A DNA stretch of 34,500 nucleotides. It comes from Desulfocapsaceae bacterium (GTDB lineage: Bacteria > Desulfobacterota > Desulfobulbia > Desulfobulbales > Desulfocapsaceae). The notes beneath the pieces are model-generated. The model saw only the letters and a list, made by a program, of their open reading frames with translations. It made no database searches and was not told the origin of the DNA. The position numbers were made by a program, and so were the translations under genes. How positions within the stretch are numbered: the first letter of the stretch is position 1; every line of letters starts with the position of its first letter. The DNA is taken from positions 1 to 34,500 of the forward strand of contig JAUSAB010000016.1 of assembly GCA_030653035.1 (NCBI GenBank), in the 5' to 3' direction. This document shows, piece after piece, positions 5,221-34,500 of this stretch.

Positions 5221-6393
5221 TCATTTTTTACGGCATTTTTTCCCTTTTCCGCCGCCGCCATACAGGACTTCAACCGAACCTTCAATATTGTCCTCGGTAA
5301 GCAGAACACTGATACCATGGCTGCTTAACACCTTTCTGGGACTCTCGCCGGCGCTTGCTGCCAGGAGCACAAAACAATCTTTCAGGGTATCAGCCAGGAT
5401 CTCCCAGCGAGAGGCGCCGGCCCCAGGCTCAGGAAGGGTGCGGGTGCCAAGCAGACAAACAAGTCCATCTTCCCTCGGGCCATAGATCAGCGCCGTTATG
5501 GCATGGCCAAGGTGGAGATCAACCTCCATACCGTTGGAGCTGACCAGTGCCACATTAGGGCGATCAACACTGGGCTTGGGCAGCGTTGAAGCCGCTGAAC
5601 AGCAACTCTTTCCGGAGGGATCAGCCATCCTATCGGCTTGGATCTTCTCAGGGACTGCCAGAATGGTCATATATTTTGCCACCTGGTTACGAATGCTGGT
5701 CATCAGTTCATGACTCGGCCGTTCAAGCATCTCTTCCTCTTCCGTGGTCGGATCAAAGGGCAGCAATGCCATGGATTTCACCCCCAGGGCCGCCATGGTC
5801 CCGGCAATTTGCTCCACGTGCTCGTCATTATACCCCGGATAGATCGTGGTTCTGACCTGCACATCGCATCCGGCCTGCAGAAAGGCCGCGACACTCCTTA
5901 TCTGTTCCTCCAGGAGCACCCCGGCTGCCGTGAATAACGGAATGGTTTTGATACCGGGACGGATCCAGGCATACAATCTCTTCACCACTTCCAGATCAAC
6001 ACCATCCACCAACAGGGTAACATGGCTGACACCGGCCTTGACCAGTCGCTCGACAGACTGCTCGCCTCCCAACCCCAGAGTGATAATCCCCAGATCCATT
6101 GCCGGATATTTCTCCCGCACCAGACGCAATGTATCAAGGGTCGGACCCAGATCAACCAACGGATCACCGGGACCACTTATGTTCACCCCATCAATCTTTT
6201 CACCCTTGTCCAGAAGATCATCGAGCCAGGCCAGCGCCTGTACCGGGATCATCGCCTGGCTGGACTCTTGGGTCGAGGCAAAGCGGATACGGTTATTGGC
6301 ACGCGGCGCCACCGGCAAATTCACCCATCGCCCCTGCGGGGAATGGGGATGGGTAGCGGAACAGGAACACGAGGTTTGAGAAAGAGGTGTCAT
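5221..6393 (-). CDS. NifB paralogue lacking the radical-SAM cysteine motif, with C-terminal NifX-like domain
   Basis: The 390-residue protein aligns over its length with NifB. It has LPVAP at 26-30 where NifB has VAPACNIQCNYC, GVNISGPGDPL at 69-79, VSHVTLLVDGVDLEV, IYPGYNDEH, and a C-terminal NifX-like domain from about residue 285 (DLHLGHA, RWEILADTLKDC, SPRKVLSSHGI, EVLYGG). The three AdoMet-cluster cysteines are gone: after VAP the sequence is RANNRIRFA. The HPC motif near the N-terminus and the CxxCRAD motif before the NifX domain are also missing (residues read QADRMADPSG). It therefore cannot be a normal radical-SAM enzyme. The genuine NifB is encoded separately at 34035-34500. No clear ribosome-binding site precedes ATG 6393. 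A scaffold, cofactor-carrier or regulatory role is possible. Sited directly after nifK. Confidence 0.85.
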   Translation of the reverse strand: MTPLSQTSCSCSATHPHSPQGRWVNLPVAPRANNRIRFASTQESSQAMIPVQALAWLDDLLDKGEKIDGVNISGPGDPLVDLGPTLDTLRLVREKYPAMDLGIITLGLGGEQSVERLVKAGVSHVTLLVDGVDLEVVKRLYAWIRPGIKTIPLFTAAGVLLEEQIRSVAAFLQAGCDVQVRTTIYPGYNDEHVEQIAGTMAALGVKSMALLPFDPTTEEEEMLERPSHELMTSIRNQVAKYMTILAVPEKIQADRMADPSGKSCCSAASTLPKPSVDRPNVALVSSNGMEVDLHLGHAITALIYGPREDGLVCLLGTRTLPEPGAGASRWEILADTLKDCFVLLAASAGESPRKVLSSHGISVLLTEDNIEGSVEVLYGGGGKGKKCRKK

Positions 6394-6541: not shown

Positions 6542-7915
6542 TTACAGAACAAGTTCAAACTTCGACTCAGGATCATCCCGGTCCTTACGATCCTGGATGA
6601 CACCCAGGATCTTCTCCAGCAGCCGCAGCGCCCCCTTATAGCCGACCGTCGGGAAATACTGATGGCCCTGCCGGTCAAGGATGGGAAAGCCCCAGCGCAC
6701 CAGCGGAATATCCTCGTCCCTGGCGATATACTTGCAGTAGGTGTTGCCGATAATCAGATCCACCGGCTCGTTCTTGATCCACTGGTGGAGCAGGAACATA
6801 TCGCCCTTGGCCCTGACATTGACCGCAAAAGGCATGTCCTTGGTAATCTCCAGGATCCGCCGCTCAAATTCCTTACCGGGCGTACCGGTAACAATGTGGA
6901 TCGGGCACATGTCCATGGAGACCAAAAATTCAGTCATGGCAATGAGTTGATCAGGATCTCCCACCAGCGCTACCTTTTTGTGGTACAGATACTGATGCAT
7001 ATCAGAGATCATATCCACCAGCTGCCCCCGTTCCAGGGACAATTCATCCGGCACTGAAACACCGGCGATAATACGCAGGGCATCAATAAACCGGTCCGTG
7101 GCTTTCAGACCAAACGGCATATCCAGCACCTGACAGGGAACTTTGTTCTTGGTATCGAGTTCATGGGCCGCCGCGGCGGAGCACCATTCGCCCAGGGCCA
7201 GGGTGCCGATGGAATCACCTGCGGATATAAGCTCGGCCACCGTGGTGCCGCCATCCGGAAACATCTTGTACTCCCCGGACAGGGGGCCGTTTAAAACACC
7301 AGAGGTGTCAGGAAACATGATGGTCTTGACGCCGATCATCGTGGTCAGCCTCTTGATCTCTTCCATGTCCGACGGTTCCACCCAGCCGGGGATAATATTG
7401 ACCTTGCCGTTCTTCTTGCCGGTGGTCTCAGCAAGGCCTGCCATGGATTTGACCATGGTCGAAAACCCCGTGACATGCGACCCCACATAACTGGGGGTGG
7501 AGGCGCTGATCATATACTTGCCCTCGGGAATCTTGCCCTCGGTGATCGCCTTCTTCCTGATCTGTTTGAGATCGTCGCCAATGGTCTCGGAAAGACAGGT
7601 GGTATGGGCGGCGATAATCACGGGATTATAGACGGCAAAGATATTTTCAATGGCCTGCAACATATTGGCCTGACCGCCGAAGACCGACGAGCCTTCCGTA
7701 AAGGAACTGGTGGCCGCGGAGACCGGCTCCTTGTAATGCCTGGTCAAGGTGCTCCGATGATAGGCGCAGCAGCCCTGAGAACCATGACTGTGCGGCAGGC
7801 AGCCATGGATGCCCAGTGCGGCATACATGGCCCCGATGGGCTGGCAGGTCTTGGCCGGATTGATCATCAAGGCGCTGCGCTCGGTTATTTCTTTTGGTGT
7901 GTGTCGTAATAGCAT
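6542..7915 (-). CDS. nifK: Nitrogenase molybdenum-iron protein beta chain NifK
   Basis: At 457 residues this is the short form of NifK, lacking the N-terminal extension of the Azotobacter type (about 520). P-cluster ligands are present: Cys24 (INPAKTCQPIGA), Cys49 (HGSQGC) and Cys107 (HTTCLSETIGDD). Other hallmarks are YKEPVSAATSSFTEGSSVFGG split over residues 61-81, IPGWVEPSDMEEIKR and ALGEWCSAAAAHELD. With NifD it forms the alpha2beta2 MoFe protein that holds the P-cluster at the alpha-beta interface. GAGGT lies 7 bases before ATG 7915. It is separated from nifD by 187 bases, most of which is a dispersed palindromic element. No delta-subunit (AnfG/VnfG) gene intervenes, which supports the Mo type. 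Confidence 0.97.
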   Translation of the reverse strand: MLLRHTPKEITERSALMINPAKTCQPIGAMYAALGIHGCLPHSHGSQGCCAYHRSTLTRHYKEPVSAATSSFTEGSSVFGGQANMLQAIENIFAVYNPVIIAAHTTCLSETIGDDLKQIRKKAITEGKIPEGKYMISASTPSYVGSHVTGFSTMVKSMAGLAETTGKKNGKVNIIPGWVEPSDMEEIKRLTTMIGVKTIMFPDTSGVLNGPLSGEYKMFPDGGTTVAELISAGDSIGTLALGEWCSAAAAHELDTKNKVPCQVLDMPFGLKATDRFIDALRIIAGVSVPDELSLERGQLVDMISDMHQYLYHKKVALVGDPDQLIAMTEFLVSMDMCPIHIVTGTPGKEFERRILEITKDMPFAVNVRAKGDMFLLHQWIKNEPVDLIIGNTYCKYIARDEDIPLVRWGFPILDRQGHQYFPTVGYKGALRLLEKILGVIQDRKDRDDPESKFELVL

Positions 7916-7973
7916 GATTTACCTCGACAAATAAGTGGTTGAATACGCAAAGAACTTGTAAACGCTCAGCAAG

Positions 7974-8104
7974 AGGATGGCTAAGCCAAAAGGGCCAAAG
8001 ACGAGGCGCGCAAGTCCTGAGGAATGAGGCGTACTTTTGGGTACGTCGCAATGACGAAGGATGCAGCGCAACGAAGTATTTGGCCCTTTTCGCGACGCCA
8101 TCCT
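7974..8104. repeat. Palindromic element between nifD and nifK
   Basis: The outer arms are AGGATGGC (7974-7981) and its complement at 8097-8104. The inner arms AAAAGGGCCAAA (7988-7999) and 8079-8090 are also perfect complements. The core has GTACTTTTGGGTAC and GGATGCAGCGCAACGAAG. The right end includes the nifD stop codon. A sequence with the same plan (GTACAAAGAGTAC, GCGGCGCAGCAC) occurs at 20673-20796, so it is a dispersed family. Confidence 0.8.
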
Positions 8105-9743
8105 ATTCCCATCCATAGGTGGCAGATAATTGGGGATTGTCCTGCCAAGGGGCCTTCATATAGCTCCAGACCTTGCTGTTCACCAGGCGATCGATTTCCT
8201 GATAAAAGTTGATCGCCCCCTCAAAACCGGCATACGGCCCGCCTGAATCATAGCTGTGCAACTGCTTCATGGGCACGCCCAGCTTCTGGATGGAATATTT
8301 TTCCTTGATTCCAGCACAGAAGATATCCGGTTTCATCAGCTCCACCAGCTTTTCCGCCTCGTACTGATTGAGATCATCAATAATGAGGGTGCCGTTTTCC
8401 ATATCAGGGGCCAACCCGTCATAATGTTTGAACTTGTAGCCGGCATTTTCCAGCGCCTTGATCTCTTCGGCACTTTTGCGTGGGTTAAAGCGGTTTGCAT
8501 CAGCCTCGACCTCCAGCTCTTCAATGTTCCGGCTGTCCGCATCCACCTTGAGATCAGGAATAACCTGCCGTCCCTCATAGTCATCACGATGACCAAACTC
8601 ATATCCGGCGGAGATGACCCTCATCCCCATCTCGTTAAACAGCTCCTTGTAATGATGGGCCCGGGAGCCGCCCACGAACATCATCGCCGTCTTGCCCTCA
8701 GTACGGGTGCGGACATCGGTGCGGGCCGCCAGGACCTTCGGCATCTCTTCAGTAATAACCTCCTCAACCCGATCGATGAATTCCTGATCGCCAAAGTACT
8801 GGGCGATCTTGCGCAACGACTTGGCCGTGGCATCGGCGCCGATAAAATTCACCTTGATCCAGGGGATGCCAAATTTAGTCTCCAGCATGTCGGCTACATA
8901 ATTAATGGAGCGGTGGCACATGACGGCATTCAGGTCGGCTTTATGGGCCGAGGCGAACTGGTCATAGGTGGAGTTGCCCGAAAAGGTGGCAATATTGGTG
9001 ATGCCGCATTTTTTGAAGATGCGGTCGATCTCAAAGCCATCACCGCCGATGTTGTACTCACCCAGCAGGTTGATCTTGTATTTGCCCGGTTTCTCCGCAT
9101 CATTTTCGCCGACGATATGCTTGAAGACCTGGTTGTTGGCGATATGATGGCCGGCAGACTGGGAAACACCCTTGTACCCTTCGCAGGAAAAGGCATAAAC
9201 ATTGCAGTCACCGAATTTTTCCTTCATCCTTTTGGTCACGGTATGGATATCATCACCGATCAGACCCACCGGACAGGTGGCGAAGACGGCAATCGACCGG
9301 GGATGAAAGAGGTCATAGGCCTCCTGAATGGCGGCCGCCAACTTTTTCTCGCCACCAAAGATGATATCCGAATCCTGCATGTCGGTACTGAAGCAGTAAT
9401 TCATATAGTTCTCACCATCCAGCCCGGCATCCGTCTGGTTCCTGCGGGTCAGCCAGGCGTAAAAGCTGCAGCCGATGGGACCATGCACCAGATTGACGAT
9501 ATCCCGGGTCGGGCCCATGATAACGCCCTTGCATCCGGCATAGGTACAGCCGCGCATGGTGATAATTCCGGGTGTGGTGCGAACGTTGGCCGTAATCTCG
9601 GGCGTTTCGTTCCCCTGGGCCTCATTGATCATGATCTGTTTGGAGCGCTTGCGGGCCACCTTCGACGGGTACTTCGCCAACAGCTCCGCCTTGACATGGG
9701 CAGGATCCCATTGCACGATTTTTTTCTTGGTTGTTGTTGCCAT
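8103..9743 (-). CDS. nifD: Nitrogenase molybdenum-iron protein alpha chain NifD
   Basis: A 546-residue alpha subunit. P-cluster ligands are Cys66 (MRGCTYAG), Cys92 (HGPIGCSFY) and Cys157 (FATCPVGLIGDD). FeMo-cofactor ligands are Cys276 (VMCHRSINY) and His496 (LHSYDSGGPYAGF). The active-site Gln195 and His199 (GVSQSAGHH) are kept, equivalent to Azotobacter Gln191 and His195. Arg361 (FVGGSRAHH) matches the cofactor-contacting arginine. An extra cysteine, Cys71, follows the first P-cluster motif (AGCKG, serine in Azotobacter). About 50 residues are inserted near 393-440 (rich in E and D), as in the anaerobe-type and alternative nitrogenases. GTAGGTGAAATG gives the ribosome-binding site. nifV, modE and the absence of a delta subunit argue for the Mo enzyme. 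The stop codon lies in a repeat element. Confidence 0.97.
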   Translation of the reverse strand: MATTTKKKIVQWDPAHVKAELLAKYPSKVARKRSKQIMINEAQGNETPEITANVRTTPGIITMRGCTYAGCKGVIMGPTRDIVNLVHGPIGCSFYAWLTRRNQTDAGLDGENYMNYCFSTDMQDSDIIFGGEKKLAAAIQEAYDLFHPRSIAVFATCPVGLIGDDIHTVTKRMKEKFGDCNVYAFSCEGYKGVSQSAGHHIANNQVFKHIVGENDAEKPGKYKINLLGEYNIGGDGFEIDRIFKKCGITNIATFSGNSTYDQFASAHKADLNAVMCHRSINYVADMLETKFGIPWIKVNFIGADATAKSLRKIAQYFGDQEFIDRVEEVITEEMPKVLAARTDVRTRTEGKTAMMFVGGSRAHHYKELFNEMGMRVISAGYEFGHRDDYEGRQVIPDLKVDADSRNIEELEVEADANRFNPRKSAEEIKALENAGYKFKHYDGLAPDMENGTLIIDDLNQYEAEKLVELMKPDIFCAGIKEKYSIQKLGVPMKQLHSYDSGGPYAGFEGAINFYQEIDRLVNSKVWSYMKAPWQDNPQLSATYGWE

Positions 9744-9812
9744 TTCACCTACTCCTTATTCTGAAAAGGTATTTCGTCGTTGAGAAGACGGTCTTCATCC
9801 ACCTGGGGAATT

Positions 9813-9843
9813 GATGGGCACGTCCTGTCGGCCTTTGCCCATC
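9813..9843 (-). promoter_or_regulatory. Hairpin in the nifI2-nifD gap
   Basis: GATGGGC at 9813-9819 pairs with GCCCATC at 9837-9843. The nifI2-nifD gap is 143 bases, longer than others upstream, and this stem would form in the transcript. It could mark a processing site or partial terminator that sets nifI:nifDK ratios. There is no T-run. Confidence 0.35.
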
Positions 9844-9886
9844 CTACTGCTGGTTCCCGTCTCAGCCAGCGCTACACCTGAATTTA

Positions 9887-10261
9887 TTAAACGATGGACT
9901 TCAGACCCGTCTCTCCGGTACGAACCCGGACCGCATCGGCCACCGGCAGGACAAAGATCTTGCCGTCACCCGGCTTGCCAGTCTGATTGGTCTTAATGAT
10001 CGCCTCGACCACATCACTGACCAGCTCATCTTTCACCACCACCGTCACCATCCGTTTGGCATACAACTTGCCTTTCTCGCCAAGGAGGGAGGCTGCCTCT
10101 TCATAGCCCTGATTCGCCCCCTCAAGGACAGGCATATTGACAAAACCCTTGCCGCGGCCATGGGCCTCATGGGCAAAGAAGGCGTCAATACCGGCATCAG
10201 TCAGGGCCTGCTTGGTCTGATTCATCATATTGATGCGCACTATCGCAATCACCTCTTTCAT
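9887..10261 (-). CDS. nifI2: Nitrogenase-specific PII-like regulator NifI2
   Basis: A 124-residue GlnB-superfamily protein. It has the N-terminal strand MKEVIAIVRINMMNQTKQAL, a distinctive T-loop region (AHGRGKGFVN...GANQGYEEAASLLGEKG), and the conserved GKIFVLPVADAVRVRTGE C-terminal strand and B/C-loop. In anaerobes and methanogens NifI1 and NifI2 form a hetero-oligomer that binds dinitrogenase when 2-oxoglutarate falls and ADP rises, switching nitrogen fixation off after ammonium addition. The T-loop lacks the uridylylation tyrosine context of GlnB. Its ATG overlaps the nifI1 stop by four bases (ATGA), implying translational coupling and near-equal synthesis of the two partners. Confidence 0.95.
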   Translation of the reverse strand: MKEVIAIVRINMMNQTKQALTDAGIDAFFAHEAHGRGKGFVNMPVLEGANQGYEEAASLLGEKGKLYAKRMVTVVVKDELVSDVVEAIIKTNQTGKPGDGKIFVLPVADAVRVRTGETGLKSIV

Positions 10262-10614
10262 ACCGGCCCCCTTTCGGATTCAAATTCCGTCTCCTTGACC
10301 CCGGAGCTGATGGTGTAGGCCTCCTCCACATCACTGACAAAGATCTTACCGTCACCAAAAGCACCCTTCACTCCGGACTTGGCTGTTTTCATGATGGTAT
10401 CCAGGACAAAATCCTTATCCGCCGGATTGATCACGCTCATCAGCATGACCTTGGGAATCTCATCATAGGTAACATCGCCGATCTTGATGCCGCGCTGCTT
10501 GCCGCGTCCCGCCACAGCGTATTTGGTGACAGAGGGAAATCCAGCATCCATAAGGGCTGCAAGGATCTTGTCCGCTTTCTCTGGTCTGACAATGGCTCTA
10601 ATCATGGTTAACAT
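10258..10614 (-). CDS. nifI1: Nitrogenase-specific PII-like regulator NifI1
   Basis: From ATG 10614 (AGGAG 8-9 bases upstream) the protein has 118 residues: MLTMIRAIVRPEKADKIL, the AGRGKQRGIKIGD T-loop of NifI1, and GDGKIFVSDVEEAYTISSG. A longer frame to 10671 lacks support. NifI1 partners NifI2 in ammonium switch-off of nitrogenase by direct binding to NifDK. It lies 142 bases after nifH on the same strand; the gap contains purine/pyrimidine-rich sequence able to form weak structure, which may lower expression relative to nifH. Confidence 0.95.
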   Translation of the reverse strand: MLTMIRAIVRPEKADKILAALMDAGFPSVTKYAVAGRGKQRGIKIGDVTYDEIPKVMLMSVINPADKDFVLDTIMKTAKSGVKGAFGDGKIFVSDVEEAYTISSGVKETEFESERGPV

Positions 10615-10756
10615 GGTTATTTCTCCTATATATTTAATAAGTTGTAGTGTGCGGATCACAGGGAGAGGCAAGAGACGAAAGGTTCAAAGAAACGATTAGC
10701 TGACTGGCTGCACCTTCCCCTCTTTAACCTTGCCCCTTGTGCCTTTATGCCTTCCC

Positions 10757-11602
<846 letters not shown>

Positions 11603-25813: not shown

Positions 25814-26881
25814 TTGAATAAATCTATTAATGTAAATTTCCCAGGTGGCTCTAAATCCCGTGTGAACCTCGCTGGGAATAACATCCGTTCACAAGTCATA
25901 ACACCGGATGATTTACTTGTAGTCGAAGAATGGCGTGCTGCTCATCGTGCAGTTTTGAATACATTTCAAGCAATTCTGCGCACTAGAACTCGCGGAAAAG
26001 ATATTGTCGTTGCACAAAGACACAAGAGGAGATCTACAATTTTTGATAAATTGGATCGGTTTCCAGCAATGCAACTGGCACGAATGGATGATGTAGCCGG
26101 TTGTCGCCTAATCTTTTCAGATATACAGGAGCTATACGATTTTCGTAAAAACCTTCATAAAGCTCGATTTCATCACGACCGACGCAACGATATTGACAAA
26201 TATGATTATATAAAGAATCCAAAGGCCACAGGATATCGTGGTATTCATGACGTATATGTATATGACGTTAATTCCGTCAACGGGCGTCATCTAAAAGGGC
26301 TAATGGTTGAGATCCAGTATCGGACAAAAATTCAACACGCATGGGCTACTGCAGTAGAAGTCATTGGATTTATCACAGAAAGCCAGCCTAAATTCCAAGA
26401 AGGGGACACACGCTATCAAACAGCTATGGCGCTTGCGAGTGAAATACTTGCTAGGGCGTTTGAAGGAAGGAGTGGGCCATTTTCACAGAGAGACAAGAGT
26501 GAAGTCGTAAAAGATTTCCTCAAACTGGACCAAGAGTTAAGGCTTTTAAAAACGCTACAAGGCCTTAATTCCGCCGATACCATTGTAAGCACAAACCGAA
26601 ACTCCATTCTCATATTCTCTCCGACTGGAGAGTTAGAAATAAAAACATACCGTGATGCTCCAGAGGCTCTTCGTGCCTTGTTCCAGCTAGAAAAAGAATA
26701 TCCAGAAAAGGACATCGTTCTAGTTAAAGCAGATACGTCAGAAGAGGTACGATTTGCTTTTAAAAACTATTTTTCTGATGCCCAAGACTTTATCCGCTTG
26801 GTTGAAGAAGGATGCCAAGTCCTTTCGGGTGTTAGCATGATTGAGCAAAAAACTGTATTGAAAACTCTGAATATAAAATAA
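25814..26881 (+). CDS. RelA/SpoT-domain nucleotidyltransferase with extra C-terminal domain
   Basis: A 355-residue protein starting at TTG 25814 (GAGGAAAAAA just upstream). Residues about 60-190 hold the (p)ppGpp-synthetase core: AQRHKRRSTIFDKL (substrate-binding basic motif), ARMDDVAGCRLIF (Asp92/93), NPKATGYRGIHDVY (Tyr141 of the G-loop) and VEIQYRT (Glu166, Gln168, Arg170). All key residues are present, so catalysis looks intact. There is no HD hydrolase domain. The C-terminal 150 residues (from about 205) are not a TGS/ACT region and are unrecognised. Length and plan recall stand-alone alarmone synthetases and toxSAS proteins with a fused antitoxin-like domain such as CapRel. Codon use is AT-rich relative to neighbours and relic genes flank it, suggesting acquisition by transfer. 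Confidence 0.85.
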   Translation: MNKSINVNFPGGSKSRVNLAGNNIRSQVITPDDLLVVEEWRAAHRAVLNTFQAILRTRTRGKDIVVAQRHKRRSTIFDKLDRFPAMQLARMDDVAGCRLIFSDIQELYDFRKNLHKARFHHDRRNDIDKYDYIKNPKATGYRGIHDVYVYDVNSVNGRHLKGLMVEIQYRTKIQHAWATAVEVIGFITESQPKFQEGDTRYQTAMALASEILARAFEGRSGPFSQRDKSEVVKDFLKLDQELRLLKTLQGLNSADTIVSTNRNSILIFSPTGELEIKTYRDAPEALRALFQLEKEYPEKDIVLVKADTSEEVRFAFKNYFSDAQDFIRLVEEGCQVLSGVSMIEQKTVLKTLNIK

Positions 26882-29050: not shown

Positions 29051-29179
29051 TAGAAAATACAACATGGAACTCATTACCATCAAACTCATACGAGAAAACA
29101 GAGATTAGATCTTCACCTTTGCCCCATCCCCCCTGATAAATTTCAAAAATGCGCTTATTCCTAATAATTATTGCAAATT

Positions 29180-29195
29180 TGTAAAACATTAAACA
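29180..29195 (+). promoter_or_regulatory. Candidate NifA-type activator site upstream of nifA
   Basis: TGT (29180-29182)-N10-ACA (29193-29195), 43 bp upstream of the -24 GG at 29240. This is closer than the usual 80-150 bp and the context is AT-rich, so it may be fortuitous. If real it implies autoactivation. Confidence 0.4.
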
Positions 29196-29237
29196 AGAAG
29201 GATATCCATAACATACTGAAAGCAAAGCGATTGCCCT

Positions 29238-29254
29238 TTGGCATGTTTTTTGCT
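29238..29254 (+). promoter_or_regulatory. Sigma-54 promoter of nifA
   Basis: TTGGCATGTTTTTTGCT contains GG (29240-29241), ten bases, then GC (29252-29253), the exact -24/-12 architecture with the near-consensus TTGGCAYG-N4-TTGCT. Transcription would start near 29265, about 50 bases before the nifA ATG at 29315. Confidence 0.8.
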
Positions 29255-29314
29255 CTATACTTTCCAGGCGCCAACACAACACACCCACCCACTCGGCGCA
29301 ACTTGGGAGAAATT

Positions 29315-30937
<1,623 letters not shown>

Positions 30938-31209: not shown

Positions 31210-32520
31210 ATGAATCTCCTGAACAATAAATCAATCTTTACGTCCATGCTTCAGGATGGCCCCTTTGCGGTTGGTGATCTGCCGCCCTTTGCCCATCCTT
31301 TTTCCAAAGAGGCCAAGAACTGGGTGCTCACACTACGAGACAACCAGTTGATGAAAACCAAATATCGCGCTGTTCGCAGTCAGATTTTCAACTTTCTAGG
31401 AATCAACAGTTTTGACGAGATCCTGGTCCTGATCCACGACCGGAAACACCGCGAGAAAACAGCGGAACGCTCTCGCCGCCTTCTGGGAAACATGTTCGGT
31501 CTCGACAGCGCCACCCATGACATCAGCCGGTACCTGCACGACTATGCCCGTATCGCTGACGATGTGGTCAACTCCCTGCGGGAAAAGGTCCTGGCCCCCT
31601 ATCGCTCTCATATCGAGACTACCAATGAGATCGAAACTACCCACGACCCGGTGAATCTGCTACTCATCATCTTTGACGAGCGCTTTCACCGCAAGGCCCG
31701 CTTTGAGGCCAAGCGCAAGCTGGTGCTCATGAATCTGGCCGGCTCCATTGACCAGCGGGAACGGGAGACCGATATCGAGACCAAGTTTTCGGACTTCCTT
31801 CGTTTTCTCAATTCCCATGTCTGGAGCCCCAGCCTCAAGATCGGCGATCTGGAAATCAAGTATCTGCACAGCCACCACCATCCTGACGATTTCAGCTGCC
31901 GGGAAGTGACGGTGCTCTCTGAAGAACAGGCTCGACTGCTGGCACCCGCAGCCGGTGAAAAACTGACCCTGATCAAGCGCCGCCGTTTTCGCAGCCAAGA
32001 CCGGGAGGTTCCGATTTACGTCACGATCAGAAAAAAACCACCGGCTGCCAAAGTTCTGAAACTGTTGCGTAAAAATGAAAAAAATCCTGCCGTGGCCGTT
32101 GATGATGAGTTGGGATTGATGGCGGTGCTCAACTCGGTGGGTGATGTCAAGTGCTTCATCCGTCACCTGACCAACAGCGCCGTGCAGGCAGGCTCGCTCA
32201 TGACCCTGGAGGATATCTCCGACACCCTGACCGGCGGCCGGTACGGGGGCACATCCACGGGCAGCTCCGGCAGCACCCCGATGCTGAAATTTTTTGCCAG
32301 AATGGGCGGGATACGGGTGGAATTTATTATCCACACCAACCGCTCCTATCTTAACTATATCTACCAGCGGGATGTGGCCCATGACGAATATGAGGTCAAG
32401 CGGATCTTCGACACCGGAGTGGCGGACTTTCTCTTTCCCATCGATATCTATCACCTGAAGATGGACGAGATCCGCACCTCCCAGATCAACACGTTTCGGA
32501 AACGGATCGAAGGAAGCTAA
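31210..32520 (+). CDS. Unrecognised 436-residue protein in the nifV unit, possible nucleotidyltransferase fold
   Basis: Start chosen at ATG 31210 (CAGGA upstream); the frame extends back to a TTG at 31135 without support. The protein is soluble. Residues 1-200 are mostly helical, with many charged residues. Residues about 273-400 show a pattern like a RelA/SpoT synthetase or related nucleotidyltransferase: TIRKKPPAAKVLKLLRK (basic/lysine motif), AVAVDDELGLMAVL (acidic pair at 298-299), a glycine/serine-rich loop GGRYGGTSTGSSGSTP, IRVEFIIHTN (Glu371) and VAHDEYEVKRIF (His391, Tyr394). No named family is recognised with certainty. It ends 11 bases before nifV, so the two are surely co-transcribed, which suggests a nitrogen-fixation or regulatory link. 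The fold proposal is inference. Confidence 0.75.
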   Translation: MNLLNNKSIFTSMLQDGPFAVGDLPPFAHPFSKEAKNWVLTLRDNQLMKTKYRAVRSQIFNFLGINSFDEILVLIHDRKHREKTAERSRRLLGNMFGLDSATHDISRYLHDYARIADDVVNSLREKVLAPYRSHIETTNEIETTHDPVNLLLIIFDERFHRKARFEAKRKLVLMNLAGSIDQRERETDIETKFSDFLRFLNSHVWSPSLKIGDLEIKYLHSHHHPDDFSCREVTVLSEEQARLLAPAAGEKLTLIKRRRFRSQDREVPIYVTIRKKPPAAKVLKLLRKNEKNPAVAVDDELGLMAVLNSVGDVKCFIRHLTNSAVQAGSLMTLEDISDTLTGGRYGGTSTGSSGSTPMLKFFARMGGIRVEFIIHTNRSYLNYIYQRDVAHDEYEVKRIFDTGVADFLFPIDIYHLKMDEIRTSQINTFRKRIEGS

Positions 32521-32531
32521 CGAGGTTTGCC

Positions 32532-33653
32532 ATGACTCCCAATTTTCTCGGCATTATCGACTCAACCTTACGGGAAGGCGAACAGACGCCTGGTGTTCGC
32601 TTCAGCCAGGAACAGCGCTGCGCGATCATCCGCCAGCTTTGCCAAGTGGGAGTAGAAGAGATGGAATTAGGTGTTGCTTCCGAAAAAAACACCTACCTGC
32701 CGGAGCTGCTGACCTTTGCCCGGCAGATAACCAAAGGAGAGCAACGCCTGGGTCTCTGGTGCCGCTGTCACCACGAAGATGTTGAGTTTGCCGCAAGCTG
32801 CCGGCCCGATGTCCTGTCGCTGTCGATCCCGGCCTCAGACCTGCACATCAATGAGCGTCTGCGAAAAGACCGGGCCTGGATCCTGGCCACCGTGCGTCAG
32901 ACCGTTGTCCAGGCCAGGGAATCCGGCATTCCTTTTATCTCTCTCGGTCTTGAAGACGCGACCAGAGCCGAACCCGAGTTCCTCTGCCAGCTGGCCCGCG
33001 CCGCGGCGGATTGCGGCGTCCAGCGTCTACGGCTGGCCGACACCGTGGGTATTGGCTCTCCGGCCACCATTGCAGCAATGGTAAAAATGCTGCGACGGAT
33101 ATCAGGGCTTCCCTGCGGAGTCCACACCCACAACGACTTTGGCATGGCCACCGCCAATGCCATTGCCGCCATTGAGGCTGGGGCATCCTGGATCGACGCC
33201 ACCATCCTTGGCCTTGGCGAACGGGCAGGCAATTGCCGCCTGGAAGAGGCCGTCGCCTTTCTCTGCCTGCAAAAAGGGATAGAACATTATCGGATCAACC
33301 TTCTTCCCGCACTCTGCCAGACCGTCAGCAAGGCGACAGGTATTGCCATCGCCCGCAACCATCCTGTTATCGGCAGCGCCATCTTTACCTGCGAAACCGG
33401 CCTGCACCTGCATGGCCTGACCCTCAATCCCGACACCTATGAGCCCTATGCTCCAGACAAGGTTGGCGCCAACCGCACCCTACGCTTTGGCCACAAGAGC
33501 GGCAAACGTGCCCTCTGCAACCACTTGGCACGCTTAGGCCATCCCATTGATGACAACCAGGCGGAGTCGCTTTCACGGCAGCTCCGTAACCTGACTGACC
33601 TTACCGCCCAAGGACTCAGTGATCCTGAGCTGTTGCGCCTGGCGGCGCAATAA
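32532..33653 (+). CDS. nifV: Homocitrate synthase NifV
   Basis: A 373-residue DRE-TIM metallolyase. It condenses acetyl-CoA and 2-oxoglutarate to R-homocitrate, the organic ligand of FeMo-cofactor. Motifs: DSTLREGEQTPG (Asp10, Arg14, Glu15), LGLEDATRAEPEF, RLADTVGIGSP and the metal-binding HTHND (His198, His200). The C-terminal DITLLGLGERAGN-equivalent ATILGLGERAGNCRLEE is kept. Length equals the NifV norm (about 380), shorter than 2-isopropylmalate synthases, and no LeuA regulatory domain is present. GAGG lies about 6 bases before the ATG. It is preceded by the 436-residue gene and followed at once by a strong terminator. nifB on the opposite strand is convergent. Confidence 0.94.
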   Translation: MTPNFLGIIDSTLREGEQTPGVRFSQEQRCAIIRQLCQVGVEEMELGVASEKNTYLPELLTFARQITKGEQRLGLWCRCHHEDVEFAASCRPDVLSLSIPASDLHINERLRKDRAWILATVRQTVVQARESGIPFISLGLEDATRAEPEFLCQLARAAADCGVQRLRLADTVGIGSPATIAAMVKMLRRISGLPCGVHTHNDFGMATANAIAAIEAGASWIDATILGLGERAGNCRLEEAVAFLCLQKGIEHYRINLLPALCQTVSKATGIAIARNHPVIGSAIFTCETGLHLHGLTLNPDTYEPYAPDKVGANRTLRFGHKSGKRALCNHLARLGHPIDDNQAESLSRQLRNLTDLTAQGLSDPELLRLAAQ

Positions 33654-34034: not shown

Positions 34035-34500
34035 TCAACCGCAACCGGTGCCCGTCCCTTGGCAATGCCCGTTGCTGCAGCTCTTTTTCTCCCGTCTCTT
34101 CAGCTTGGACAACCCTTCTCCGGAATAAATCGCCTTGAGCCCCATGTCAATGAATCCCGACATGGTCACCGGTTCAATGCCGTGCTTTTGCAGGATCTCA
34201 CGGGGGGTCTCGCCCATGTCGCTGACCAGCACCGCCCGGCAGTCATACAGTAAGCGGGTCATGGCCTGCCAGCGGCCGATACCACTGCCGGGGATTGGGG
34301 CCGGACGTTCTTCAACCAGTCGGAAAGTGTTATCCGGTGCCTGCTCCCAAATCATAAACCGGGTGGTCTCACCCAGATGCTGATTGACAAGCATCCCCTC
34401 CATACTGGCCACCGCCACATAGGGCCGCATATTCCCCGGATTAGCCGGCAGCGAGGCGCAGGCACTCAGACATCCGGCCATCTCGCCTGAACGGTCGGCA
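34035..34500 (-). CDS. nifB: NifB, C-terminal part, cut by window end
   Basis: The minus-strand frame is open from base 34499 to the stop at 34035. The visible 154 residues begin ADRSGEMAGCLSACASLP, matching the end of the NifB radical-SAM core after the CxxCRAD motif, and continue into a NifX-like domain (RPYVAVASMEGMLVNQHLGE, RWQAMTRLLYDCRAVLVSDM, ETPREILQKHGIEP, GLKAIYSGEGL). The tail is cysteine-containing (SCSNGHCQGTGTGCG). NifB makes NifB-co, the [8Fe-9S-C] precursor of FeMo-cofactor. The radical-SAM part lies outside the window. Comparison with the paralogue at 5221-6393 shows shared linker and NifX-domain sequence. It is convergent with nifV. Confidence 0.88.
   Translation of the reverse strand, partial: ADRSGEMAGCLSACASLPANPGNMRPYVAVASMEGMLVNQHLGETTRFMIWEQAPDNTFRLVEERPAPIPGSGIGRWQAMTRLLYDCRAVLVSDMGETPREILQKHGIEPVTMSGFIDMGLKAIYSGEGLSKLKRREKKSCSNGHCQGTGTGCG

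Follow-up and report, generated by a model that had tools for sequence, protein, structure and literature searches.

A 436-residue protein of a Desulfocapsaceae bacterium, for which sequence searches return no family, is on balance probably a nitrogen-linked pyrophosphotransferase, i.e., a putative enzyme of the RelA/SpoT fold that has diverged beyond sequence detection. The predicted fold and the proposed donor site indicate a RelA/SpoT-type pyrophosphotransferase, and the genes found around its homologues point to nitrogen status. If active, such proteins would represent alarmone enzymes of sulfate reducers and sulfur disproportionators that are tied directly to nitrogenase genes as well as to PII/AmtB nitrogen sensing; in addition, the RelA/SpoT fold would have members unseen by curated sequence models. 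A literature search covering titles and abstract openings returned no entry that names such a protein (nearest entry, PMC10060972), and excerpts of the RSH superfamily survey (PMC3153485) name Desulfotalea solely for second-copy long RSHs.

A gene between nifA and nifV

The stretch of DNA analysed in full, hereafter the window, comprises positions 1-34,500 of the forward strand of contig JAUSAB010000016.1 (GCA_030653035.1). The gene of the 436-residue protein lies at 31210..32520 (+), its stop codon ending 11 bases before the ATG of nifV at 32532, and both the coordinates and the length given in the original prediction were correct. An alternative TTG start would yield a product of 461 residues, and many homologues start at the residue equivalent to the ATG at 31210. 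The downstream gene (32532..33653, +) encodes a homocitrate-synthase-like protein whose best family is TIGR02660 (348.7 bits, below the cut-off of 462.9). Upstream, the placement after nifA was confirmed by a TIGR01817 match of 565.6 bits, above the cut-off, for the frame at 29171..30937 (+), this being the longest frame, with a TTG start. A nif cluster is located elsewhere in the window (6542..11584, -) and is composed of nifH (10757-11584, -), two PII-type genes (9911-10261 and 10303-10608, both -), nifD (8103-9743, -) and nifK (6542-7915, -; 425.8 bits, just under the cut-off of 427.3). The position of the PII-type pair between nifH and nifD (9911-10608) resembles the nifI1/nifI2 arrangement.

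Several further features of the window were recorded. Two separate pieces (5224-6393 and 34038-34499, both -) show partial matches to the NifB model, each of which stays under the cut-off. A true RelA_SpoT-family protein of 355 residues (25814-26881, +; PF04607, E 9.8e-15) is encoded 4.3 kb upstream of the gene; it corresponds to the candidate defence family PDC-S33 in PADLOC (E 4.7e-103), and no relatives of it were found in the other mapped homologue loci. The gene itself contains an antisense open frame of 264 residues (31660-32454, -), which is probably a codon-usage effect, and similar antisense frames are apparently present in some homologues (for example one of 459 residues, its overlap being inferred).

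The statement that the protein belongs to no obvious family held throughout the sequence searches, as no family was returned for it from Pfam, NCBIfam, PHROGs, PADLOC or a phmmer search of the PDB. The sole Pfam row, TPR_WDR11 (E 0.044, below cut-off), was discarded as chance; neither a TGS nor an ACT domain was found by Pfam, and the GlnD model TIGR01693 was unmatched in NCBIfam up to E 10. Fifty-three homologues searched against Pfam gave scattered matches only, none better than E 0.011, and a profile of these 53 returned no PDB chain up to E 10. When the genome of origin was searched with PF04607 up to E 10, three other proteins were listed and the 436-residue protein was not among them. 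Profile-profile comparison was carried out against 45 RelA_SpoT domains collected from genomes of the order to which the window belongs. The profile of all 45 domains was the best of 11 profiles in hhalign, with E-values of 1.1e-3 for the full-length query, 4.5e-4 for the C-terminal part and 3.4e-4 for the core (probability 21-38%), as compared to E 0.033 or worse for six unrelated control families with the C-terminal query. A profile of small alarmone synthetases (SAS) only was weaker (E 4e-3 to 1.4e-2), and profiles of long RSHs only, full-length RSHs and RelA-like proteins only were unmatched (E 0.1 to 0.6). The alignment with the RelA_SpoT domains spans residues 265-390 and pairs R274-x-K276...K284 with the R-x-K...K motif, D299 with the Asp of strand b2 and E371 with the Glu of ExQxRT, so that the profile comparison agrees, if weakly, with a RelA/SpoT relationship.

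Predicted fold and proposed active site

A RelA/SpoT-synthetase-like or nucleotidyltransferase domain had been proposed for this protein, and the AlphaFold2 model built from the 53 homologues (mean pLDDT 88.7, pTM 0.88) bears this out: it contains the nucleotidyltransferase-like sheet on which that proposal depended, and its nearest solved relatives are RelA/SpoT synthetases. The model consists of two parts, of which the C-terminal one, at about residues 206-436 (31825..32517, +), was delimited by Foldseek, VIA and the profile alignment. Here, a beta-rich stretch (215-262) is followed by b1 (265-275), a helix (278-287), b2 (301-307), a helix (310-326), b3 (332-338), a lower-confidence loop, b4 (359-365), b5 (368-376) and helices to the end. 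This b1-helix-b2-helix-b3-loop-b4-b5 order of the predicted model fits the synthetase fold with its five-stranded nucleotidyltransferase sheet.

In a Foldseek search of the PDB, ranks 1-29 were all of the RelA/SpoT type (RelP, Rel, SpoT, RelA and CapRel), and rank 30 was a chain of a pre-50S ribosome particle. The best row was RelP 6ewz (E 3.0e-3, probability 1.00), with zero rows at E <= 0.001 and with low whole-model TM-scores (0.21/0.41 for 6ewz). The top row of the VIA comparison was 6fgk (Z 9.5 over 154 residues, rmsd 4.4), and ranks 1-23 (Z 9.5 to 7.4, covering model residues about 180-436) bear RelA/SpoT-type titles, with the exception of 3l9d, which is titled by locus only. Polymerase mu follows at Z 7.3, the DNA polymerases mu and lambda trailing the RelA/SpoT rows; the lead over these unrelated polymerases is a moderate one of about 2 Z units for the predicted model, in a Z range where common arrangements also score, though the top rows are uniform in kind. 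In a viral structure library, rank 1 was an unnamed protein of 1,321 residues, and ranks 2 and 3 were named RelA/SpoT.

The N-terminal part, residues 33-204 (31306..31821, +), is all-helical according to DSSP on the models. Modelled alone, it reached a pLDDT of 80 with five uneven models and matched no solved fold, the best rows being E 2.6 in Foldseek and, among 127 chains, Z 4.5 in VIA. HD domains, GlnD and GlnE were absent from the fold rows shown for this part, these rows being too few to exclude them. An all-helical part in front of a synthetase fold is shared with the long RSHs Rel, RelA and SpoT; no HD hydrolase motif was seen in the helical part, which contains one invariant histidine (H160), and the TGS and ACT domains are likewise missing from the Pfam results.

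Conservation was counted over 53 aligned rows, the window protein included, and residue equivalences to known synthetases were derived from profile alignment, spacing and strand order. Invariant in all rows are R274, K275, K276, K284, R287, K288, D299, G302, E371, T376, H391, E393 and Y394, and D298 is conserved in 52 of the 53. The motifs that the original prediction had listed within residues 273-400 thus exist and are conserved across the 53 rows as it required, whereas its Gly/Ser loop is only partly so: G351 and S352 are invariant and most other loop positions vary. In excerpts describing the SaRelP structure (PMC5794853), Arg78 and Arg112 stack against the adenine, Lys80, Lys88, Arg91 and Ser84 contact the phosphates, Asp107 and Glu174 bind Mg, and Tyr151 of the G-loop binds the guanosine substrate. 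The corresponding excerpts for FaRel2 (PMC11782079) give R64, K66, S70, K74, R77, D90, R95, E145, Q147 and Y128 as site residues, and those for RelSeq (PMC7983052) give D264, E323, R241, R269 and Y308.

Six of the eight SaRelP donor-site residues have counterparts in the protein, all six of them invariant. The end of b1 and the following helix (residues 274-288; 32029..32073, +) carry the proposed donor-ATP contacts R274, K276, K284 and R287, which are the counterparts of SaRelP R78, K80, K88 and R91 (the R287-Arg91 pairing being made by spacing alone, with long RSH rows of the same order having no Arg there). Within DDELG (residues 298-302; 32101..32115, +), D299 is the proposed Mg-binding Asp equivalent to D107, and within EFIIHT (residues 371-376; 32320..32337, +), the counterpart of ExQxRT, E371 is the proposed second acidic residue equivalent to E174, both pairings with the Mg-binding residues following from the profile alignment. 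The HDEYE stretch (residues 391-395; 32380..32394, +) lies at a helix start and is invariant except for D392; we infer that H391 may stand in for the ribose-contacting His190 of SaRelP. Shuffling the invariant-residue string 200,000 times reproduced the donor signature R.K.{7}K..R-D-E once, and shuffling the plain sequence equally often did so 256 times; these figures are illustrative, the pattern having been written post hoc with spacings like those of SaRelP and FaRel2, widened to include the 436-residue protein.

Other positions differ from the known synthetases. The Ser that contacts the alpha-phosphate is replaced by A280 (Ala in 50/53), the second adenine-stacking Arg by M304 (Met in 50, Leu in 3), and in EFIIHT both I373, at the Gln position, and H375 are invariant. 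The loop in the place of the G-loop, i.e., the acceptor site (residues 339-358; 32224..32283, +), includes Y345, G351, S352, T356 and M358; position 345, which hhalign pairs with the G-loop Tyr, is Tyr in 39 rows, His in 10 and another residue in four. Judged from the alignment, the triphosphate-Mg half of the donor site appears to have been kept and the adenine contacts to have changed, the acceptor loop being uncertain. With regard to membership of the RSH superfamily, the protein is missed by the sequence model and lacks part of the motif set, whereas the predicted fold, the proposed metal residues and the basic contacts agree with it; it appears RSH-like in anatomy, at least in its donor half.

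The closest comparison is with RelP and RelQ (6ewz, 6fgj, 6fgk), with which the protein shares its predicted fold and strand order, the R-x-K-x7-K-x2-R arrangement, the Asp and Glu of the ATP-Mg site and a loop between strands 3 and 4 at the G-loop place. Unlike these enzymes, it is missed by PF04607, has the Ser, the second Arg and the ExQxRT motif changed, and possesses a helical N-terminal part of 200 residues as well as a nitrogen gene neighbourhood.

Because of A280, M304, EFIIHT and the variable position 345, the activity or the acceptor may differ or be lost. It is accordingly conceivable, though rather unlikely, that the protein is a catalytically dead relative with ATP or (p)ppGpp as a ligand, acting as a scaffold for PII, nitrogenase synthesis or glutamine sensing: A280, M304 and I373 stand where three purine or phosphate contacts would normally be, the G-loop motif is incomplete, and a frequent operon partner, described below, is by its motifs itself a degraded enzyme. 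However, a scaffold need not keep the two proposed metal-binding acidic residues and the four basic triphosphate contacts, all of which are present in every row. It is also unlikely that the protein is a (p)ppGpp synthetase of the ordinary kind devoted to nitrogen starvation. While the donor site, the fold and the Tyr at position 345 in 39 of 53 rows are what such an enzyme would have, changes affect the acceptor motif and one of the adenine-stacking Arg residues, and recognised RelA_SpoT proteins above the family cut-off are present in all 38 genomes of the order that were tested, including that of the window, so that a further general source of ppGpp is not obviously needed. For the favoured reading, a pyrophosphotransferase with a nitrogen-linked task, the changes at the acceptor and adenine contacts suggest that a different acceptor is used or that regulation differs.

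Nitrogen genes around the homologues

To map the neighbourhood, 55 loci were located by tblastn, one per genome, nine of them from the same genus as the window; neighbour families were named by Pfam on one example each, and the nif references came mainly from the window. The families comprise PII (PF00543), AmtB (PF00909), a class-I glutamine amidotransferase-like protein (PF00117) and a Gcw_chp/porin-like protein that falls below the Pfam cut-off. A recurrent order, present in whole or in part in loci such as L065, L152, L059, L071, L025 and L151, is PII, AmtB, (porin), (amidotransferase-like), the gene, (a small membrane-like protein) and (nifV), with bracketed members being optional.

Among the 46 loci outside the genus, 20 had been chosen for diversity, their neighbours being as yet unknown, 20 were picked partly after nifD positions were known and six came from a peptide-pattern scan; only the 20 blind loci were set against controls. 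PII, AmtB or nif genes were found within 5 kb in 12 of these 20 loci, in seven of 10 families, as opposed to 0/20 RSH loci and 0/20 arbitrary places in eight genomes of the order under the same identity rule, by which NifA and NifV matches under 45% were dropped (without the rule, the controls gave 2/20 RSH loci and 1/20 arbitrary places, i.e., 3/40). The remaining eight blind loci had no nitrogen gene nearby, and four of the 20 have less than 5 kb on one side. The non-blind sets were positive in 9/20 (picked partly by nifD) and 6/6 (pattern scan), a seventh pattern-scan locus, L024, lying on the same contig as L149, which is negative.

Coupling to nifV, as originally proposed, is commonest in the genus, where nifV is adjacent in eight of the nine mapped loci, as against 7/46 loci outside it; in these 46, more frequent partners within 5 kb are PII (22/46), AmtB (20/46) and the amidotransferase-like gene (17/46). 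Eight of the nine loci of the genus were positive for nitrogen genes, and neither PII nor AmtB was mapped beside the gene in any of them. The proposed nitrogen link itself goes beyond nifV: even in distant families, the gene is repeatedly accompanied by PII, AmtB and nif genes, and its recurrence next to genes for ammonium sensing suggests a signal dedicated to nitrogen. Across 242 genomes of the order, 120 hold both the gene and nifD, 45 the gene alone, 24 nifD alone and 53 neither, which is a descriptive count over related genomes. A role restricted to nitrogen fixation was dropped because nifD went unmatched, at the chosen threshold, in 45 of the 165 genomes with the gene, some of these 45 being incomplete. 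PII was absent from five of 58 genomes, four of which also lack the gene, the fifth (G321) having it.

A scan with a sigma-54 consensus over 54 loci placed seven above the 95% level of random stretches. In five of the seven (L059, L062, L063, L065 and L152), a strong TTGGCAC-type site precedes the estimated start of a PII-headed run by 63-96 bases, 14 such runs being present among the scanned loci; the same scan returned no such site in the window. These sigma-54-like sequences lend weak support to the nitrogen link.

The amidotransferase-like gene is present in 87 of the 242 genomes at E <= 1e-40, 76 of which also hold the gene of the 436-residue type, and at least 42 of these 76 have it on the same strand, 18-424 bases upstream of that gene; in the genus of the window the amidotransferase-like gene was found in none of the 14 genomes listed at this threshold. 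The catalytic residues of class-I amidotransferases are His, Glu and Cys. Twenty relatives from the mapped loci (for example L065:5568-6305; that of L060 is not directly upstream) were compared with a solved glutamine amidotransferase: in place of QFHxE they carry QFDNH or a similar stretch, none of the 20 retains the His or the Glu, and 10 have also lost the nucleophile Cys. The partner may thus be a glutamine-binding, non-hydrolysing sensor.

The sharing of operons with PII and AmtB would also suit another type of nucleotidyltransferase, one whose target is a protein (PII, glutamine synthetase or AmtB, for example) modified by adenylylation, uridylylation or phosphorylation; the fold group contains many nucleotidyltransferases, and it is polymerases mu and lambda that follow the RelA/SpoT rows in the structural comparison. 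We regard this as quite unlikely, since the nearest solved structures are pyrophosphotransferases and since 102 of 116 genomes encode GlnD, which normally uridylylates PII (84 of these 102 also have the gene). GlnD is of the nucleotidyltransferase fold group and resembles the protein in its role near PII; it differs in that the latter has no NCBIfam match and in being encoded separately in those 102 genomes. No replacement of GlnD is therefore needed in most genomes, and the idea of such a replacement was dropped, six gene-bearing genomes of the sample being without GlnD.

The preferred reading, a RelA/SpoT-type pyrophosphotransferase, would then operate as follows. In the protein, a helical N-terminal part would be combined with a pyrophosphotransferase fold in the C-terminal part, where the residues for the ATP triphosphate and for Mg are retained, and its role would most likely be nitrogen regulation in the Desulfobulbales. 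Upon a change in ammonium or glutamine status, ATP would donate pyrophosphate to an acceptor, which may be a purine nucleotide held in the altered G-loop, and the product would be a signal, made or modified, which adjusts nitrogen assimilation or fixation. The amidotransferase-like neighbour, where present, could serve as glutamine sensor, and PII could be the sensor of energy and 2-oxoglutarate. The full version of this scheme, i.e., a nitrogen-dedicated alarmone system in which a sequence-undetected RelA/SpoT-fold enzyme works with PII and a degraded glutaminase as glutamine sensor, uses an acceptor other than GDP or GTP and controls nitrogen fixation, is offered as a tentative and somewhat doubtful extension. 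A small alarmone synthetase near PII signalling is described in the excerpts of PMC10060972 on the cyanobacterial PII/PipX network with RelQ, which concerns, in contrast, other organisms and a recognisable RelQ.

Distribution in the Desulfobulbales

Of 242 genomes of the Desulfobulbales, the order of the window, 165 match the protein (118 of the 148 of good quality). Among 297 genomes sampled evenly across the phylum there were eight with a match at E <= 1e-5, one of them the genome of the window, and all eight belong to the order. A profile search of 345 genomes of the phylum gave 11 matches, ten inside the order; the other (G268, E 0.008 over 35 residues) was taken as chance, and hence the phylum samples contain no convincing match outside the order. 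An exact peptide-pattern scan of one genome per species, by which only close relatives are detectable, located 21 loci on 20 contigs, including ones named Desulfobulbaceae, Desulfocapsa, Desulfocapsaceae, Desulfofustis and Desulfobulbus or bearing broader names. Neither 72,556 plasmid records nor 50,697 phage records contained a match.

These data bear on the suggestion of a toxic small alarmone synthetase or tRNA pyrophosphokinase belonging to a module of phage defence or of the toxin-antitoxin type. The structural matches include CapRel and, further down, FaRel2 (E 0.27), such enzymes modify tRNA or ATP, and the protein is of the same fold group as CapRel and FaRel2 (7ztb, 8pu4), having counterparts of FaRel2 R64, K66, K74, R77, D90 and E145. 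Unlike those systems, the family is mostly a single conserved gene, with a single match in 156 of the 165 gene-bearing genomes and at least 57% identity in most listed matches; it has no PADLOC family and no phage or plasmid match, and no small, antitoxin-like partner recurs in most loci, the small partners found among genes of at least 80 aa (clusters 18 and 46) occurring in four and two loci. We consider such a toxin very improbable, and the toxin-antitoxin reading was dropped, the recurrent neighbours being PII, AmtB, the porin, the amidotransferase-like protein and nif genes.

Identity to the window protein disagrees in places with family labels: several genera of another family (f2) show 67-79%, a genus of the same family as the window (g203) about 59-62%, and one genome of a third family (G386, f3) 74% as opposed to 57-60% in most other listed genomes of that family. 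Transfer of the gene between lineages is possible. Lastly, a second, broken copy of the gene (L028, 6019-7901) lies on the same contig as an intact copy (L017, DIKT01000095.1).
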